The translations under genes and the position numbers were made by a program. A stretch of 60,209 bases of DNA from Thermoguttaceae bacterium (GTDB lineage Bacteria; Planctomycetota; Planctomycetia; Pirellulales; Thermoguttaceae): the NCBI GenBank assembly GCA_017557195.1, contig JAFZAL010000034.1:1-60209 (forward strand), in the 5' to 3' direction. This document shows positions 264 through 22,983 of this stretch, in pieces. The notes under the pieces were generated by a model. The model was not told the origin of the DNA and made no database searches. It saw only the letters and a list, made by a program, of their open reading frames with translations. Numbering within the stretch: the first letter of the stretch is position 1; every line of letters begins with the position of its first letter.

Positions 264-818
264 TTATTTTTCGAAGAATCGCTTGAGCAATCCGGCGAAA
301 CCGGCTCCGTGACGAGCTTCGTCCTTTGCCATTTCGTGAACGGTGTCATGAATGGCGTCGAATCCGAGCTGCTTGGCGCGTTTCGCCAATTCGAACTTAC
401 CCGCGCAGGCGCCAGCTTCCGCTTCAGCGCGCATCTGAAGGTTCGTCTTCGTGCAGGGAACGAGGACTTCGCCCAGCAGTTCCGCAAACTTGGAGGCGTG
501 TTCCGCTTCTTCAAAAGCGTAACGCTTGAAGGCTTCGGCGATTTCCGGATAGCCTTCGCGTTCCGCCTGACGGCTCATCGCCAGGTACATGCCGACTTCG
601 GTGCATTCGCCGGTGAAATTGGCGCGAAGTCCGTCCATGATTTCCTGATCGTCAACTTTGCCGTCGCCGATCGAGTGAACGGTTGCATAGCTGGCGCCAG
701 TTGAACCTTCTTCCATCTTGGTGAACTTGCTGCCGGGAACGCCGCACTGCGGGCATTTTTCCGGAGCTTCGTCGCCTTCGTAAACGTAACCGCAAGCTGG
801 GCATACAAATTTAGCCAT
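264..818 (-). CDS. Reverse-type rubrerythrin (N-terminal rubredoxin, C-terminal diiron domain)
   Basis: 184 residues. The N-terminus is a rubredoxin-like FeS4 site ([10 protein letters not shown] at about residues 6-15, CPQCG at about 22-26), followed by a ferritin-like four-helix diiron domain with Glu/His ligands in EEAEHA and DEARHG. In classical rubrerythrin the rubredoxin part is C-terminal; the reversed order is known in anaerobes, where such enzymes reduce hydrogen peroxide (and oxygen) to water. The start is supported by AAGGAG 8 nt before the ATG. It is monocistronic, with its own terminator at 198-230 and a long A+T-rich upstream region. Cytoplasmic. Its presence suggests an anaerobic or microaerophilic host cell. 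Confidence 0.93.
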
Positions 819-1199
819 AATCTAACTCCTTGTAAAATTAGGGGGTCAAAACGATTATTGGAATAATGTACCGAAACGTCTTCCAATTTTATAAACTAAT
901 TATTTTGAACTTTTTGATAAAGTTTCTCAAAATCTTTTTTAAATTATATCCCTCATTTGAGAAAAAACAAGGGGGAGGAAAGGATAGAATAGACCTAATC
1001 GCACGCAAATTTTCCTGACGTCAAACGACTCCTCCCGAAAGGGGCGGCTCGACGTCCTTTTCGCCTGTTTTGCAGCGAAATTCTGTTATCGCCCGAGCAA
1101 GAGGGGGAAAGTTGAAGAAATTGGACGCAGGAATCGAGAACAATGAGCGTTTTTTAGTGAGTATTAGTAGAATTCTGCATAGTCCGTAATTTTTTCATC
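819..1199. other. Intergenic region between divergent rubrerythrin and the small membrane protein
   Basis: No gene is seen. Around 900-960 the sequence is A+T-rich. At 908-924 there is an inverted repeat AACTTT-N5-AAAGTT upstream of rubrerythrin that could be an operator (peroxide or iron control would fit, but no family consensus is clear). Positions 1001-1013 (GCACGCAAATTTT) are identical to 13 bp of the terminal inverted repeat of the element at 7586-7936, with no partner nearby; this may be a relic end. Confidence 0.4.
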
Positions 1200-17918: not shown

Positions 17919-18110
17919 TTAGTCCTTGAGTTGCTTGTTCTCCATTTCAGAGCAAGGTTTCGTGCAATGTTTACAACAGCATTCGCACCTGGACGGCTTA
18001 CAGGAGCCGGAACAGCAGGAGGACTTCCCGCTGAATACCAGATACGCGCGGCGGATAATATACAAAACCGCCGCGGCACAAATGACAACTACAATAATCG
18101 TTTCTGACAT
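17919..18110 (-). CDS. FeoB-associated Cys-rich membrane protein
   Basis: 63 residues: one N-terminal membrane helix (SETIIVVVICAAAVLYIIRRAYLVF) followed by a cytoplasmic Cys-rich tail with nine cysteines (SSCCSGSC, SRCECCCKHC, PCSE). The layout matches the FeoB-associated protein family (TM helix plus Cys-rich tail), typically encoded immediately after feoB and thought to act as an accessory in ferrous iron uptake, in the position of FeoC in enterobacteria. It lies 68 nt downstream of feoB in the same orientation. Confidence 0.85.
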   Translation of the reverse strand: MSETIIVVVICAAAVLYIIRRAYLVFSGKSSCCSGSCKPSRCECCCKHCTKPCSEMENKQLKD

Positions 18111-18178: not shown

Positions 18179-20332
18179 TTACATGAGCATATTTGTTCCA
18201 ATCTGAAGCCAGCTTCCAATCTGGAATATCAGCGTGGAAATTGTCCAGGCGACAATCGTACAGGTAATAAACTGAGCGAACGCCCAGCCCCAGCCCGCTT
18301 CTTTTACCATGATGGAAAACGTCGCAACGCACGGCGCGGACAGCAGGCAGAAGACCAGAATCGACAGACCGACCAGCGGCGGGTAGTTCTTTTTCATGAT
18401 GTCGCGCAGCGATTCCGATTCCTCGTCCGCTTCGCCAATGCTGTAAACGATGCCCATCTGAGCGACAAAGACTTCTTTCGCTGCCAGAGCGCCGACAATT
18501 GCCGTTCCAATCTTCCAGTCGAATCCCATCGTCCGGATTACCGGTACCATCGCTCGACCCAGACGTCCGGAATAGGAGTACGCCAACTGCACTTCCGCTT
18601 CCTGGTTGTCGATTTCTTCAATCTGACCGGTCAAGTCGTCGAACGTTGCAAGCTGTTCGTTGAATTTCGCCAACTGACTATCCAGTTCTGCCAGTTTCTT
18701 TTCCTTTTCTGCGTCCGCCAGAGCGGAGTCTTCTTCCACGCCGTCACGCTCTTCCTGAACGCCGTCGCGATCCTTCGCCAGCGCTTCCAGTTCTGGATTG
18801 GCTTCTTTGAGTTCGTCCAGCTTTTGAGCGATTGGGGCGCGCTGGGCTTCGAATTTCTCAGATTCCGATTCCGGCAATACCGGGAACGTCGCCAACGCCC
18901 ACAGGACGATTGAAATTCCCAGAAGAATCGTACCGGCTTTTTTCAAGTACATCCAGCCGCGTTCAATCGTGTGAATTCCCACCGTTCGGAACGTCGGGAA
19001 TCGATACGGCGGCAGCTCAATAATAAACGGAGCGTTTTCCTCGCGAATAACAAAGACGCTCATGATCTTCGCAACAATAATCGCGACGATGATGCCCAGC
19101 ACGTACAGTCCCCACATGACCCACGCCTGATACGCTTCCGGGAAGAAAGCGGGAACGAGCAGCATGTAAATCGGAATTCGCGCGCCGCAGCTCATCCACG
19201 GGATAATAAACATGGTAATCAGACGCTCTTTTCTGCTCGACAGCGTTCTGGTTGCCATGATAGCGGGAATGCCGCAGCCGAACCCGATAATCATCGGGAC
19301 GAAGCTCTTGCCGTGCAAGCCGATGTACTTCATGAAGTTGTCCGCCAGGTACGCCGCGCGCGCCATGTATCCGGAGTCTTCCAAAAAGGCGATCGCCAGG
19401 AACAGTATGAGAATATTAGGCAGGAAGACAAGCACCCCGCCCAATCCGCCGATTATGCCGTCAACGATCAAAGACTTCAGCAGGCTTTCTTCGCCCTCCG
19501 CCCAAAAGCTGCTGACCCAGTCGCCGAGCCATTCAAATCCCGCTTCGATCCAGTCCATTGGGTACTGTCCCAACGTAAAGGTGAGCTGGAATACCAGATA
19601 CAACAGGAACAGGAATATCGGGATTCCAATCCAGACGTTGGTCAGAACGGCGTCGACTTTATCCGACCCGCTGGGACCTTCTTTCGGACGGCTTGCAACA
19701 GCGGCTGAACACATCTTTTTGATTTCTTCCAAACGCGCCGTTGTAACAGCGACTTCCTCTTCCGTTGACTTCGGCTTCGTCAATTCCTCCGCATTGAGTT
19801 TAAGAGCGGATTTACTGTCCTTTTCTCCCAAGGCGTCAAACAGACTTTCCGCCGCGTCGAGAATTGCTGCAACCGCGCCGGACTCGTACCCGACGCATTC
19901 CACGATCGGCATTCCCAGCTGAGCGGACAGCGCATCTTTGTCGATGTTCATGCCGTTCTTTTTGGCAAGGTCGATCATGTTCAACACGACCAGAACGGGA
20001 ATTCCCAACTCTTTAAGCTGAAGCGTCAAAAGCAGATTTCGTTCCAGGTTGGAGGCGTCGACAATATCGATAACGAAATCGTAATCGCCGTTGATGATAT
20101 AATCCCGCGCCACGCGTTCTTCGTCTGAATACGCCGACAAACTGTACGTGCCCGGCAAGTCCGTCAGTTCAAAGGTTGTTCCTTTATACTTGCGGCTTCC
20201 AGTATGCCATTCAACCGTAATGCCCGGATAGTTCCCAACGTGCTCGTGCGCGCCGGTAAGGTTATTAAACACAGTCGATTTTCCGCTGTTGGGCTGACCA
20301 GCCAAAACCGCTCGGATAGTTTTATTGCTCAT
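18179..20332 (-). CDS. feoB: Ferrous iron transporter FeoB
   Basis: 717 residues. The N-terminal GTPase domain has G1 GQPNSGKST (about 9-17), G3 DLPGTYSL (about 59-66) and G4 NMID (about 119-122). It is followed by a helical GDI-like spacer and the membrane core from about 232, with two Gate domains (GYMARAAYLADNF... and KAGWGWAFAQF region). Charged coiled-coil-like sequence at about 490-580 separates the gate halves, with many E/K residues (KDRDGVQEERDGVEED). It imports Fe2+ across the inner membrane. A palindromic operator lies just upstream at 20350-20365, and feoA precedes it. Confidence 0.95.
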   Translation of the reverse strand: MSNKTIRAVLAGQPNSGKSTVFNNLTGAHEHVGNYPGITVEWHTGSRKYKGTTFELTDLPGTYSLSAYSDEERVARDYIINGDYDFVIDIVDASNLERNLLLTLQLKELGIPVLVVLNMIDLAKKNGMNIDKDALSAQLGMPIVECVGYESGAVAAILDAAESLFDALGEKDSKSALKLNAEELTKPKSTEEEVAVTTARLEEIKKMCSAAVASRPKEGPSGSDKVDAVLTNVWIGIPIFLFLLYLVFQLTFTLGQYPMDWIEAGFEWLGDWVSSFWAEGEESLLKSLIVDGIIGGLGGVLVFLPNILILFLAIAFLEDSGYMARAAYLADNFMKYIGLHGKSFVPMIIGFGCGIPAIMATRTLSSRKERLITMFIIPWMSCGARIPIYMLLVPAFFPEAYQAWVMWGLYVLGIIVAIIVAKIMSVFVIREENAPFIIELPPYRFPTFRTVGIHTIERGWMYLKKAGTILLGISIVLWALATFPVLPESESEKFEAQRAPIAQKLDELKEANPELEALAKDRDGVQEERDGVEEDSALADAEKEKKLAELDSQLAKFNEQLATFDDLTGQIEEIDNQEAEVQLAYSYSGRLGRAMVPVIRTMGFDWKIGTAIVGALAAKEVFVAQMGIVYSIGEADEESESLRDIMKKNYPPLVGLSILVFCLLSAPCVATFSIMVKEAGWGWAFAQFITCTIVAWTISTLIFQIGSWLQIGTNMLM

Positions 20333-20349: not shown

Positions 20350-20365
20350 ATTAGATTAATCTAAT
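20350..20365. promoter_or_regulatory. Iron-box-like palindrome before feoB
   Basis: ATTAGATTAATCTAAT is a perfect 16-bp palindrome in the 81-nt gap between feoA and feoB. It shares the TTAG...CTAA half-sites with three further palindromes in this cluster. The likely binder is the DtxR-type regulator encoded at 20656-21423. Confidence 0.7.
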
Positions 20366-20413: not shown

Positions 20414-20629
20414 TTATTTGACGTCAATCTTATTCGGCAAATTGCGACCAAGAATCATTCGGGAACCCATGCAGTTGACGTGGGACGCCCCAACAAGGTT
20501 GTTGTTGACGATTTGGACGTCAGAACCGGGGAGAATTCCCATGGAACACAGACGGTTCACGTTGGCGTCGGAGGCGTTGACGGAAACAACCTTGACGGTT
20601 TCGCCATTTTTAGCTTCTTTCAATGACAT
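20414..20629 (-). CDS. feoA: FeoA, SH3-like accessory protein of ferrous iron uptake
   Basis: 71 residues, a single FeoA domain: MSLKEAKNGETVKVVSVNA followed by CSMGILPGSDVQIV and GRNLPNKI at the end. FeoA is a small cytoplasmic SH3-fold protein that interacts with FeoB and is required for full transport. It starts 26 nt after the regulator stop, with AAGGAAGG-type purine-rich sequence before the ATG, so regulator and feoA are one transcript. Confidence 0.9.
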   Translation of the reverse strand: MSLKEAKNGETVKVVSVNASDANVNRLCSMGILPGSDVQIVNNNLVGASHVNCMGSRMILGRNLPNKIDVK

Positions 20630-20655: not shown

Positions 20656-21423
20656 CTACTCAATTAAATCAATTAAAACCTGCTCGGCGTCTTCGACTGT
20701 CATGGTCAAAAACGAGCCTTTTAAACGAAAAAAGAGGGAGCTTCCCTGAACAGGCGCCTTATCCACTTCTACAGGCGTGCCCAGAGTCGCTCCCGTTTGC
20801 AGCAACCGGTGAAGCGAGTCGCCGGATAAATTAATCCGGGCAATTGTTCCCTTCTGCCCTGGCTGAAGCTGGCTGAGCGGGATGCACTTTGCTTTCCGTT
20901 CCGCAAGCTCTTTTTGCAGCGTTTCAAATCTGGTTTGAACTTCCTGCAGGCAATTGACGCAATCTTTGCAGTCGTTATCAAAACAGCAAGCGAACTCAAA
21001 CCTGGAAATCCATTTTTTGCCCCCGCGAGGACATTCCTCAATAAACTTGGCGAATCGAACCAGTTTGTCGATGATGTCGTTGGGCATGGCGTGCTCCATG
21101 CGGCAAGCCACCTGATTCGCTTGATCCGGCTCCACCTGGAGGACGTCTCGCAGGAACGAGCGCAGCCGAACGTGCCGGCTGTAGACGTCCTGAGCGATCT
21201 GCTCGCCCGCCGCGGTAAACGTTATAAACTCATACGGGGCATAGTTTATGAGCTTTTTTTGCGCCAGGCTTTTCAACGCTACTGTAACCGACGGCCCAGT
21301 TACTTTGAGCATATCCGCAATATCTTTTGGACGAACGCCGCCTTTGTCGCGAGTCAAAATCAGAATCGCTTCCAAATAATCTTCAAGGCTTTCCGACAGG
21401 TCGAGGGAAGTGTCAAACGTCAT
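20656..21423 (-). CDS. DtxR/MntR-type metal-dependent regulator with C-terminal FeoA domain
   Basis: 255 residues from ATG 21423, chosen because GGAGGAAAC lies just ahead of it; an in-frame ATG at 21456 would add 11 residues and overlap less well with an RBS. An N-terminal winged helix (LEDYLEAILILTRDKGGVRPKDIADMLKVTGPSV, in parts) is followed by the dimerisation/metal-binding helices with HVRLRSFL and CRMEHAM (Cys/His/Glu ligands), then a Cys-rich insertion (CCFDNDCKDCVNC, about 160-172) that is not usual for MntR, and a C-terminal FeoA/SH3 domain (PGQKGTIARI). It probably senses Fe2+ and represses the Feo genes, flavodoxin and DUF3793. The Cys-rich insert could bind an Fe-S cluster or extra metal (inference). 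Confidence 0.85.
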   Translation of the reverse strand: MTFDTSLDLSESLEDYLEAILILTRDKGGVRPKDIADMLKVTGPSVTVALKSLAQKKLINYAPYEFITFTAAGEQIAQDVYSRHVRLRSFLRDVLQVEPDQANQVACRMEHAMPNDIIDKLVRFAKFIEECPRGGKKWISRFEFACCFDNDCKDCVNCLQEVQTRFETLQKELAERKAKCIPLSQLQPGQKGTIARINLSGDSLHRLLQTGATLGTPVEVDKAPVQGSSLFFRLKGSFLTMTVEDAEQVLIDLIE

Positions 21424-21467
21424 AGCGTTTCCTCCAAAAGCGGTTTTCAAATTCAAATACTCAAAGT

Positions 21468-21487
21468 AATTTAGTTTAATCTAAATT
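21468..21487. promoter_or_regulatory. Iron-box-like palindrome before the regulator
   Basis: AATTTAG-TTTAAT-CTAAATT, perfect 7-bp arms, 45 nt upstream of the regulator ATG and 32 nt past the flavodoxin stop. It would let the regulator control its own expression together with feoA. Confidence 0.75.
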
Positions 21488-21519: not shown

Positions 21520-22014
21520 CTACGCCATTTCGTTTAAAATTTGTTTGACCCAGGCGTTGATTCGCGCCTCGGTTTTGTCTGCCTCGTTGACGTCGTCCAG
21601 AGCCAAGCCGCAAAACGCTCCGTCGACAACGGCGCGGGATGCGTTGTGATTATAACCCTCGACGCTGGTTTTCCCAACGATTTTTGCCGCCTTGGACGCG
21701 ATCGCCTCGTAAAGAATCCCCATGGCGTCCAGGTACGTATCGCTAAAGGATTCCTGATCTCCAAAGCCGAACAGCGCCACCGTCGTATTGGACAGGTCAG
21801 CCGCCTGAAGACGAGCGATTCCAGACTGCCAGTCGTCCTGAAGTTCGCCGAATCCCCAGGTTGACGTTCCCAGAATCAGGGTGGACGCCTTGAAATCGTC
21901 TGCCGTCGCCTTTGCAACGTTGACGCAGTCTGCATTGAGAGCTGCTGCGATTTTATGAGCGGCGCTTTCCGTCGAGCCGGTTGAGCTGCCGAAAATTACT
22001 TTTATATCTGCCAT
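21520..22014 (-). CDS. Flavodoxin (long-chain type)
   Basis: 164 residues with the FMN phosphate-binding loop GSSTGSTESAA near the N-terminus (about 9-19), the 50s-loop GTSTWGFGELQDDW (about 49-62) and the 90s-loop region FGFGDQESFSDTYLDAMG (about 81-98). The flavodoxin fold carries FMN and replaces ferredoxin as an electron carrier under iron limitation, which fits its place among the iron-uptake genes. The start lies 15 nt after the DUF3793 stop, with AAAGAGAAAAG as a probable ribosome binding site, indicating an operon. Confidence 0.92.
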   Translation of the reverse strand: MADIKVIFGSSTGSTESAAHKIAAALNADCVNVAKATADDFKASTLILGTSTWGFGELQDDWQSGIARLQAADLSNTTVALFGFGDQESFSDTYLDAMGILYEAIASKAAKIVGKTSVEGYNHNASRAVVDGAFCGLALDDVNEADKTEARINAWVKQILNEMA

Positions 22015-22029: not shown

Positions 22030-22653
22030 TTAAGCCAGCGCCAAATTCAGAGCGCAAATTTGCTGGACGCACGCCTCCCAGCTTTCCGATTGGGTTATAA
22101 TTCGTTCCGCCTCGCGAGCGCCTCGGCGGAACAGGTCCATGATTTTCAGCGATTCCTCAACGTCTCCGTAAACCATCCACGCCCCACGATACGTAGGAGT
22201 GGATTGCCCGCAGGTAAACCCGACCACGTCTTTGAGAGGATAACCAAGAAGCAGCCCTATTTCGTGCGGGAATTCACATTCCTCGAATCGGCGGCACAGA
22301 CTGTCGAGCGTTCCTTCAACCGTTCGAATGTCGTAACCGCAGCCGGACAGAAAATCCCATTTTTCGTCGTCGGCTATTACGCGGTTCATAGCGTCGACGT
22401 CGTAAAAGAGAATCAGACTTCTGTCTTCGGCAGTTCGCAGAACTCGCCACGGAAGACCGAGTTTTTCGAGAACCTCACGCTGACTGGCGCATATCTCCTT
22501 AGCTCCAGCCAGAACCTGGGCGCGATAGCATCGCTTGACGAAAAACGTTTCCGCCGGTTTGAGTTTCATTCTCACCAGCGCCGTTTTCAGAGTCAGGCTC
22601 CGCATGAGTTCCATCTTTTTCGCGCCGCAGCCAACCTGTATTAGTTCAGTCAT
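22030..22653 (-). CDS. DUF3793-family protein
   Basis: 207 residues. The C-terminal half has HEIGLLLGYPLKDVVGF...GAWMVYGDVEESLKIM, which matches DUF3793 as I know it, a family of unknown function common in Firmicutes near flavodoxin and iron genes. I see no catalytic motif or membrane segment. It is the first gene of the flavodoxin transcript. A palindrome of the iron-box type (22654-22673) abuts the start codon, so the message may be nearly leaderless or start further in (ATG at residue 14 is an alternative). Function unknown; a link to iron limitation is inferred from regulation. Confidence 0.75.
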   Translation of the reverse strand: MTELIQVGCGAKKMELMRSLTLKTALVRMKLKPAETFFVKRCYRAQVLAGAKEICASQREVLEKLGLPWRVLRTAEDRSLILFYDVDAMNRVIADDEKWDFLSGCGYDIRTVEGTLDSLCRRFEECEFPHEIGLLLGYPLKDVVGFTCGQSTPTYRGAWMVYGDVEESLKIMDLFRRGAREAERIITQSESWEACVQQICALNLALA

Positions 22654-22673
22654 ACTTTAGTCAAGTCTAAAGT
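22654..22673. promoter_or_regulatory. Iron-box-like palindrome at the DUF3793 start
   Basis: ACTTTAG-TCAAGT-CTAAAGT, perfect 7-bp arms, directly before the ATG at 22653. Same TTTAG-N6-CTAAA design as at 21468-21487. Confidence 0.75.
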
Positions 22674-22682
22674 TAAGTTTTC

Positions 22683-22727
22683 AAAAAAGACGTTTCTGCG
22701 TATGTCGGTACCCATACGCAGAAACGT
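22683..22727 (-). terminator. Intrinsic terminator of the candidate iron-responsive RNA
   Basis: A perfect 15-bp stem (22690-22704 with 22713-22727, ACGTTTCTGCGTATG and complement) followed on the minus strand by CTTTTTTG. It lies upstream of the DUF3793 start, so it must end a transcript that began further upstream, such as the one from the 22939-22966 promoter. Confidence 0.85.
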
Positions 22728-22933
22728 AAGGAGTCAGTAACTGTCATGTATGCCAAATCGTGAGGGAACTTCTAATAATTCAATTTTGAGTCAAGCTTGT
22801 TCTTTTTTCCGTCCGCTTTGAGTCGAAAAGCCCACTCGTATGTCTAATACTGGGGCTTTTCTCCTCTGTGCGGACGAAAAAAACTCCATCGCTTGACAAC
22901 AAAAGCAATTATTTGAAGTCCCCTTGACATTGA
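22683..22933 (-). ncRNA. Candidate iron-regulated small RNA with a 159-nt rod hairpin
   Basis: A strong promoter at 22939-22966 (minus strand) predicts a start near 22933. The transcript at once enters a long imperfect duplex (22764-22922): GGGACTTC pairs with GAAGTCCC-side bases, then AATAATT/AATTATT, GTCAAGC/GCTTGAC, a CGTCCGC/GCGGACG stem with an A/T run, and GAAAAGCCC/GGGCTTTTC at the tip, separated by small internal loops. After the rod a single-stranded stretch (about 35 nt) leads to the terminator at 22683-22727. Total length is about 250 nt. No ORF is seen. An iron-box covers the promoter. It could be a free small RNA or a terminated leader of the DUF3793/flavodoxin transcript. Unrecognised family. 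Confidence 0.6.
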
Positions 22934-22938
22934 GATGC

Positions 22939-22983
22939 AGTATAGCGCTTTTTGAAATCTTGTCAATTAGACAAGTCTAAATT
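22939..22983 (-). promoter_or_regulatory. Promoter with overlapping iron-box for the candidate RNA
   Basis: Minus strand: TTGACA (22961-22966), a 16-nt spacer, TATACT (22939-22944). The palindrome AATTTAGACTTGTCTAATT (22965-22983) overlaps the first two bases of the -35, an ideal place for a repressor. This is the strongest sigma70-type promoter I find in the window. Confidence 0.8.

Follow-up and report, generated by a model that had tools for sequence, protein, structure and literature searches.

Organization of the locus

The window, that is, the whole 60,209-nt stretch of DNA that was analyzed, corresponds to contig C4 of genome G000 and is part of a 4.18-Mb metagenome assembly; the relatives of the same genus were derived from goat gut and similar samples. 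Its minus strand carries a cluster that consists, in order, of box 1, the promoter P1, the rod, the terminator, and the genes for a DUF3793 protein, a flavodoxin, a DtxR/MntR-type regulator with a FeoA domain, FeoA, and FeoB. The features of the cluster are as follows.

22965..22983, minus strand: box 1, a palindromic operator, AATTTAGACTTGTCTAATT, that overlaps the -35 of P1
22939..22966, minus strand: promoter P1, TTGACA-N16-TATACT, promoter-like score 11/12
22684..22932, minus strand: predicted RNA of this genome, ~249 nt including the insertion, deduced from P1 and the terminator
22924..22927: target site duplication, one side, TTGA
22764..22923: MITE-like insertion (the rod), 160 bp, an imperfect inverted repeat from end to end, recognized from other copies, empty sites, and its fold
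22760..22763: target site duplication, other side, GTGA; the empty site in the sister genomes is ATAA
22690..22759, minus strand: conserved RNA body 3' of the insertion plus the terminator hairpin, whose loop GGUACCGA is invariant
22728..22741, minus strand: single-stranded linker and putative seed GUUACUGACUCCUU, anti-Shine-Dalgarno, unpaired in the minimum free energy structure and mostly so in the ensemble
22683..22727, minus strand: intrinsic terminator, 15 bp followed by CUUUUUU, pairing kept through most changes
22657..22670, minus strand: box 2, TTAGACTTGACTAA, just ahead of the DUF3793 start and within the spacer of TTAACT-N16-TATGAC, a weak promoter-like site
22030..22653, minus strand: DUF3793 protein (PF12672, E 6.5e-34), start codon M1 or M14
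21520..22014, minus strand: long-chain flavodoxin (PF00258, TIGR01752)
21471..21484, minus strand: box 3, right behind TATAAT and ahead of the regulator gene
20656..21456, minus strand: DtxR/MntR-family repressor with C-terminal FeoA domain (PF01325, PF02742, PF04023)
20414..20629, minus strand: FeoA
20351..20364, minus strand: box 4, TTAGATTAATCTAA, before feoB
18179..20332, minus strand: FeoB

The hexamers of P1 (TTGACA at 22966-22961 and TATACT at 22944-22939, minus strand, with a 16-nt spacer) formed the top-scoring promoter-like site within 8 kb and were found without change across the sister loci. An earlier reading made from the sequence only had proposed this promoter, a perfect 15-bp terminator hairpin with a U-run, and the position of that terminator just upstream of the DUF3793 and flavodoxin genes, and all of these were recovered in our analysis (22966-22939 with a score of 11/12; 22727-22683 with CUUUUUU; DUF3793 at 22653-22030, then flavodoxin). 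The same reading placed the start of the RNA at the base of the rod; the rod is real, but the predicted start at ~22932 lies about 9 nt before it. The porin gene upstream closes with its own terminator-like hairpin, which makes the RNA a separate unit. In the sister genomes the predicted RNA, folded computationally, was ~90 nt. In one of these genomes, G003, the whole feo locus is present in duplicate (contigs C80 and C241), reflecting either a mixed assembly or two loci; in DUF3793 and flavodoxin one version is identical to that of G002 and the other is close to that of G001.

The rod is a mobile element

The most conspicuous feature of the locus is the rod, which folds at -76.9 kcal/mol (z = -11.5 against shuffled sequences); together with the terminator the value was -107.9 (z = -10.8). 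The sequence-only reading had taken it for part of a long rod-shaped RNA and suggested a search in relatives. When the rod and its flanks were searched by DNA comparison in 60 relatives, the rod alone was found at unrelated places, namely on contig C27 of its own genome, on C14, C110, and C17 of G003, and on C13 of G002, with 94-98% identity (2 copies in its own genome, 3 in G003, and 1 in G002). Conversely, the flanks were found without the rod where G001, G002, and G003 carry the orthologous DUF3793 locus (twice in G003), so that 4/4 loci in the three sister genomes were empty, and in the alignments positions 65-231 of the query were replaced by 3 bases. The insertion is bordered by GTGA and TTGA, a target duplication with one mismatch, and other copies are bordered by the 4-bp duplications GTTA/GTTA, ATTA/ATTA, and TTAA/TTAA. 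The copies are 160-161 bp long (250 bp in G002) with the ends GGGRA..../....YCCC, their terminal inverted repeats read GGGRA-TTC...GAA-TYCCC, and they are short and without a transposase. The copy at G002:C13:11863-12112 contains about 90 bp of extra internal sequence.

Terminal repeats, target duplications, empty sites in relatives, and several dispersed copies, which are hallmarks of a MITE, were found; the rod is a separate mobile MITE-like element, which occurs at this site in this genome only. Its extreme folding energy and its position inside the transcript would fit a functional, long rod-shaped, iron-responsive sRNA. The fold, however, is explained by the inverted-repeat nature of the element, none of the four orthologous loci in the three sister genomes contains it, and copies flanked by target duplications sit at unrelated places, so that we give this explanation next to no credence, and the claim of a long rod-shaped RNA was dropped.

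Bacterial MITEs such as RUP, ERIC/RU, and QMITE are likewise short non-coding inverted-repeat elements with target duplications. The present element differs from them in that no parent transposase was found, only 2 copies are present in this genome, and an existing sRNA-like gene was invaded. A search of the genus for a parent insertion sequence or transposase with matching ends yielded nothing but single ends or MITEs. Coxiella has sRNAs that derive from MITEs (PMC10969869).

In this genome the 160-bp element entered the 5' hairpin of the predicted RNA, left promoter, linker, and terminator intact, and would thereby convert the RNA to a rod-headed form of ~249 nt, which is probably still functional with altered stability. 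The mean unpaired probability of the linker was 0.73 in this genome vs 0.79-0.82 in the sister forms; since the linker is still mostly unpaired despite the MITE, the function of the RNA may persist. The locus is a cautionary one: the near-perfect rod (z = -11) that first catches the eye is a mobile element, and it is the unremarkable 90 nt on either side that form the functional candidate.

A conserved predicted RNA of about 90 nt

Leaving the insertion aside, the unit common to the genus consists of P1, a 5' hairpin, the 14-nt single-stranded linker, and the terminator, ~90 nt in total. Conservation, assessed among four close species, was strong in a core of ~40 nt, the stretch CAAUGUUAUGAUUUGGCAUACAUGACAGUUACUGACUCC, which was invariant in the three empty-site lineages, and of which this genome retains 30 nt unchanged on the 3' side of the insertion. 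At four-fold sites of the DUF3793 and flavodoxin genes 39% vary among the four lineages, and the probability of an invariant core of this length under neutrality was of the order of 1e-9. The first 12 nt of the linker were invariant in all four lineages, and its final U's differed by one deletion in G001. In the terminator, which has 15 perfect pairs in this genome, 5/15 pairs varied: one change was compensatory (U-A/C-G), three were kept by G-U pairing, and one pair was broken in two sequences. Covariation in the stem, calculated from four sequences, was not above that of shuffles. The invariant terminator loop (window 22690-22727) contains the self-complementary GGUACC and could therefore form kissing dimers.

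The RNA was not found outside the genus with a covariance model in 296 genomes of the order, and the DNA search agreed. No Rfam family matched the locus, even at a relaxed threshold. Known families considered for the RNA were set aside as follows: no covariance-model match to 6S RNA (RF00013) was obtained in the whole genome, and the rod is an insertion; no Rfam match supported homology to the RyhB family (RF00057); and no cis-regulatory family of Rfam, riboswitch or leader, matched.

Operator boxes and the predicted repressor

Four boxes of one palindrome family were found in the cluster. Box 1, a sequence unique in the genome, overlaps the -35 of P1, and its position is conserved in 3 sister genomes. 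The exact operator consensus TTTAGAYNNRWCTAA occurred in the feo cluster only in each of the four genus genomes (4.1-4.4 Mb); this genome contained 3 exact sites, and a slightly looser pattern gave the four boxes. The version of the cluster in G002 and on C80 of G003 had all four boxes, and in G001 and on C241 of G003 only two or three matched. These comparisons bear out the sequence-only reading, which had noted a palindrome over the -35 with three boxes of the same family (now at 22657-22670, 21471-21484, and 20351-20364) and had proposed to compare it between strains. Confinement of the boxes to the cluster is the trace expected of a local cluster repressor. The sequence TTAGACATGGCTAA, which resembles a box and is conserved across the four genomes, fell in the start codon region of groES and was rejected as a coding coincidence.

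The protein that reads the boxes is most likely the DtxR-FeoA protein encoded in the cluster. Its nearest curated models are MntR, and it scores closer to MntR than to DtxR, so manganese is possible as the metal; from feoAB and the flavodoxin, we infer that the signal metal is iron.

Candidate targets of the linker

The linker contains CUCCUU, an anti-Shine-Dalgarno sequence, extended by UUACUGA. Targets were ranked by the duplex energy between the linker and translation-initiation regions in about 2.2 of the 4.4 Mb of the sister genome G002, in which 1530 genes were called. Pyruvate:ferredoxin oxidoreductase (PFOR) ranked 2, desulfoferrodoxin 8, and rubrerythrin 15, compared with median ranks of 198, 168, and 256 for decoys that kept CUCCUUACG and had the rest shuffled. 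None of the 300 decoys put all three iron enzymes in the top 15, the trio having been picked after ranking; the base rate of iron proteins among random genes was 1/50.

The pattern AAGGAGTYAG followed by 3-8 nt and ATG, whose C/T wobble was set after rubrerythrin had been seen, gave 3-6 hits per genome of the genus, including the complement of the RNA itself. With this post hoc wobble, the 10-nt complement of the linker lay on ribosome-binding sites of rubrerythrin in 4/4 genus genomes, and it lay on those of desulfoferrodoxin in 3/4; a desulfoferrodoxin with the site was not found in G003, which is 87% complete. Among the pattern hits in ~58 genomes of the same family and other genera, rubrerythrin and desulfoferrodoxin were absent, the hits being read without regard to whether those genomes encode either gene. 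This genome has two rubrerythrin copies with the pattern, one at G000:C37:215 and the other in the window:

267..818, minus strand: rubrerythrin, predicted target (PF02915 and PF21349)
822..831, minus strand: AAGGAGTTAG, rubrerythrin ribosome-binding site, pairing with the linker with one G-U

Judged from this complementarity, rubrerythrin, desulfoferrodoxin, and PFOR are good candidates for targets of the linker. The top-15 ranks and the genus-wide sites speak for targets among iron enzymes, where the sequence-only reading had suggested testing for them; on the other hand, the number of genes with long complementarity to the linker showed no excess over decoys, and a crude motif-based test for iron proteins on the screen showed no enrichment. 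A BLAST search for targets returned short matches at chance level only.

Proposed function and alternative explanations

We consider it reasonably probable that the locus encodes a trans-acting, iron-sparing sRNA of ~90 nt resembling RyhB, FsrA, and MrsI, which would be transcribed from a promoter of its own under iron scarcity. With ample metal, the DtxR-type repressor with the FeoA domain would sit on box 1 over the -35, and the cluster would be off; this repressor would also govern DUF3793-flavodoxin, its own gene, and feoB through boxes 2-4. When metal is poor, the RNA, DUF3793-flavodoxin, the regulator, and feoB would be switched on. The linker would then pair with the Shine-Dalgarno region of the mRNAs of rubrerythrin, desulfoferrodoxin, and perhaps PFOR and block their translation, and iron sparing by the RNA would accompany the switch to flavodoxin and the uptake of Fe(II). 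The iron-box promoter, the predicted short terminated RNA beside the feo and flavodoxin genes, the conserved core, and the complementarity of the linker all agree with the RyhB-like sRNA of the sequence-only reading; the long rod of that reading is not supported.

The alternative named in that reading, a leader that ends transcription before the operon, would act in cis on DUF3793-flavodoxin by attenuation, with signal-dependent read-through. In its favor, the terminator immediately precedes the operon and shares its strand, the leader shows sequence conservation, and variation is greater in the right arm of the terminator than in the loop and the left arm, as would be seen if the latter had a second partner. 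However, inspection by eye revealed no alternative anti-terminator longer than 5 bp, Rfam gave no riboswitch match, the conserved linker complements the Shine-Dalgarno sites of other genes, and the MITE lengthens the leader and leaves the terminator untouched. Because the terminator is very strong and is followed by a separate operator with a weak promoter-like site directly before DUF3793, an attenuator appears rather improbable.

The RNA may also be real with a linker that is a generic anti-Shine-Dalgarno or protein-binding sequence, the matches to iron enzymes being ordinary Shine-Dalgarno sequences. Any strong Shine-Dalgarno sequence matches CUCCUU, the number of matching genes equals that of the decoys, and high expression by itself may keep the Shine-Dalgarno region of a gene conserved. 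Against this, the ranks of the iron enzymes, genes chosen post hoc, beat those of decoys that keep the anti-Shine-Dalgarno sequence, and same-family genomes that lack the RNA yielded no hit in which the extended site precedes these genes; we regard this explanation as unlikely while leaving it a real chance. A short leader peptide or small protein in place of an untranslated RNA is very unlikely: in this genome a 24-codon frame that starts with ATGACAGTTACT... runs through the hairpin, but a 1-nt deletion in G001 shifts the only ORF across the RNA, the changes in other lineages are not coding-like, there is no clear Shine-Dalgarno sequence, and nucleotide conservation continues beyond the frame.

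Relation to known iron-responsive sRNAs

The predicted sRNA shares with RyhB of E. coli (Rfam RF00057) and with PrrF1/2 a length of ~90 nt, its own promoter overlapped by an operator (iron-repressed there and predicted to be so here), an intrinsic terminator, and the repression of iron enzymes, here predicted. It shows no sequence similarity to them, and Fur acts there whereas a DtxR-type repressor would act here; RyhB, PrrF, FsrA, and IsrR are all Fur-controlled. RyhB represses sodB, which belongs to superoxide defence, and the counterpart here would be desulfoferrodoxin. With FsrA of B. subtilis and IsrR of Staphylococcus the RNA shares a single-stranded C-containing region; theirs binds the Shine-Dalgarno sequences of iron enzyme mRNAs, FsrA via a C-rich motif (PMC9410917), and such binding is predicted here. 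They differ in their control by Fur, in the several C-rich regions of IsrR, and in having no sequence relation to it. The likeness to MrsI (ncRv11846) of Mycobacterium tuberculosis lies in the iron-sparing role, which is predicted here, a length of ~100 nt, and a promoter box for IdeR, a DtxR-family regulator (PMC8628891), but MrsI belongs to Actinobacteria, has a 6-nt seed and the targets hypF, bfrA, and fprA, and is not related in sequence. A 2022 review (PMC9294342, Table 1) names no sRNA under an iron-sensing DtxR regulator, and MrsI with its IdeR box is a mycobacterial sRNA under a regulator of this family (PMC8628891).

The papers searched contained no iron sRNA of Planctomycetota, and the RNA, new by its sequence, would apparently be the first iron-sparing sRNA in the phylum. 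Iron-sparing sRNAs arose repeatedly without sequence relation, and the RNA described here would be an unrelated addition to this functional class. More tentatively, as a possibility that we favor less than the sRNA itself, it may be the first in Planctomycetota under a DtxR-FeoA fusion repressor; the direct regulon of the repressor would be this one cluster, the sRNA would therefore be the sole channel to the rest of the genome (the oxygen-defence iron enzymes rubrerythrin and desulfoferrodoxin, and PFOR), and the MITE would have reshaped the RNA into a long rod in one species with its seed kept. If true, the MITE-reshaped RNA with an intact seed would be a natural experiment in sRNA evolution. 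Because its candidate targets are named, the case can be tested directly, although the rumen planctomycetes concerned are uncultured.

Other features of the cluster and its relatives

A homologue of the DUF3793 protein in another genus (G020) was 39% identical. Downstream of feoB, a gene at 17919-18110 of the window (minus strand) encodes a cysteine-rich membrane protein of 63 aa with no Pfam or NCBIfam match. A methyltransferase-like gene lies between the porin gene and the RNA at two loci (L045, 1646-2302; L046, 2436-3092) and is absent from the window. G120, a genome of the same family and another genus, carries a dispersed repeat starting AAGGAGTTAGGGAAAATGGCAAAAGTCGAG in about 57 copies.
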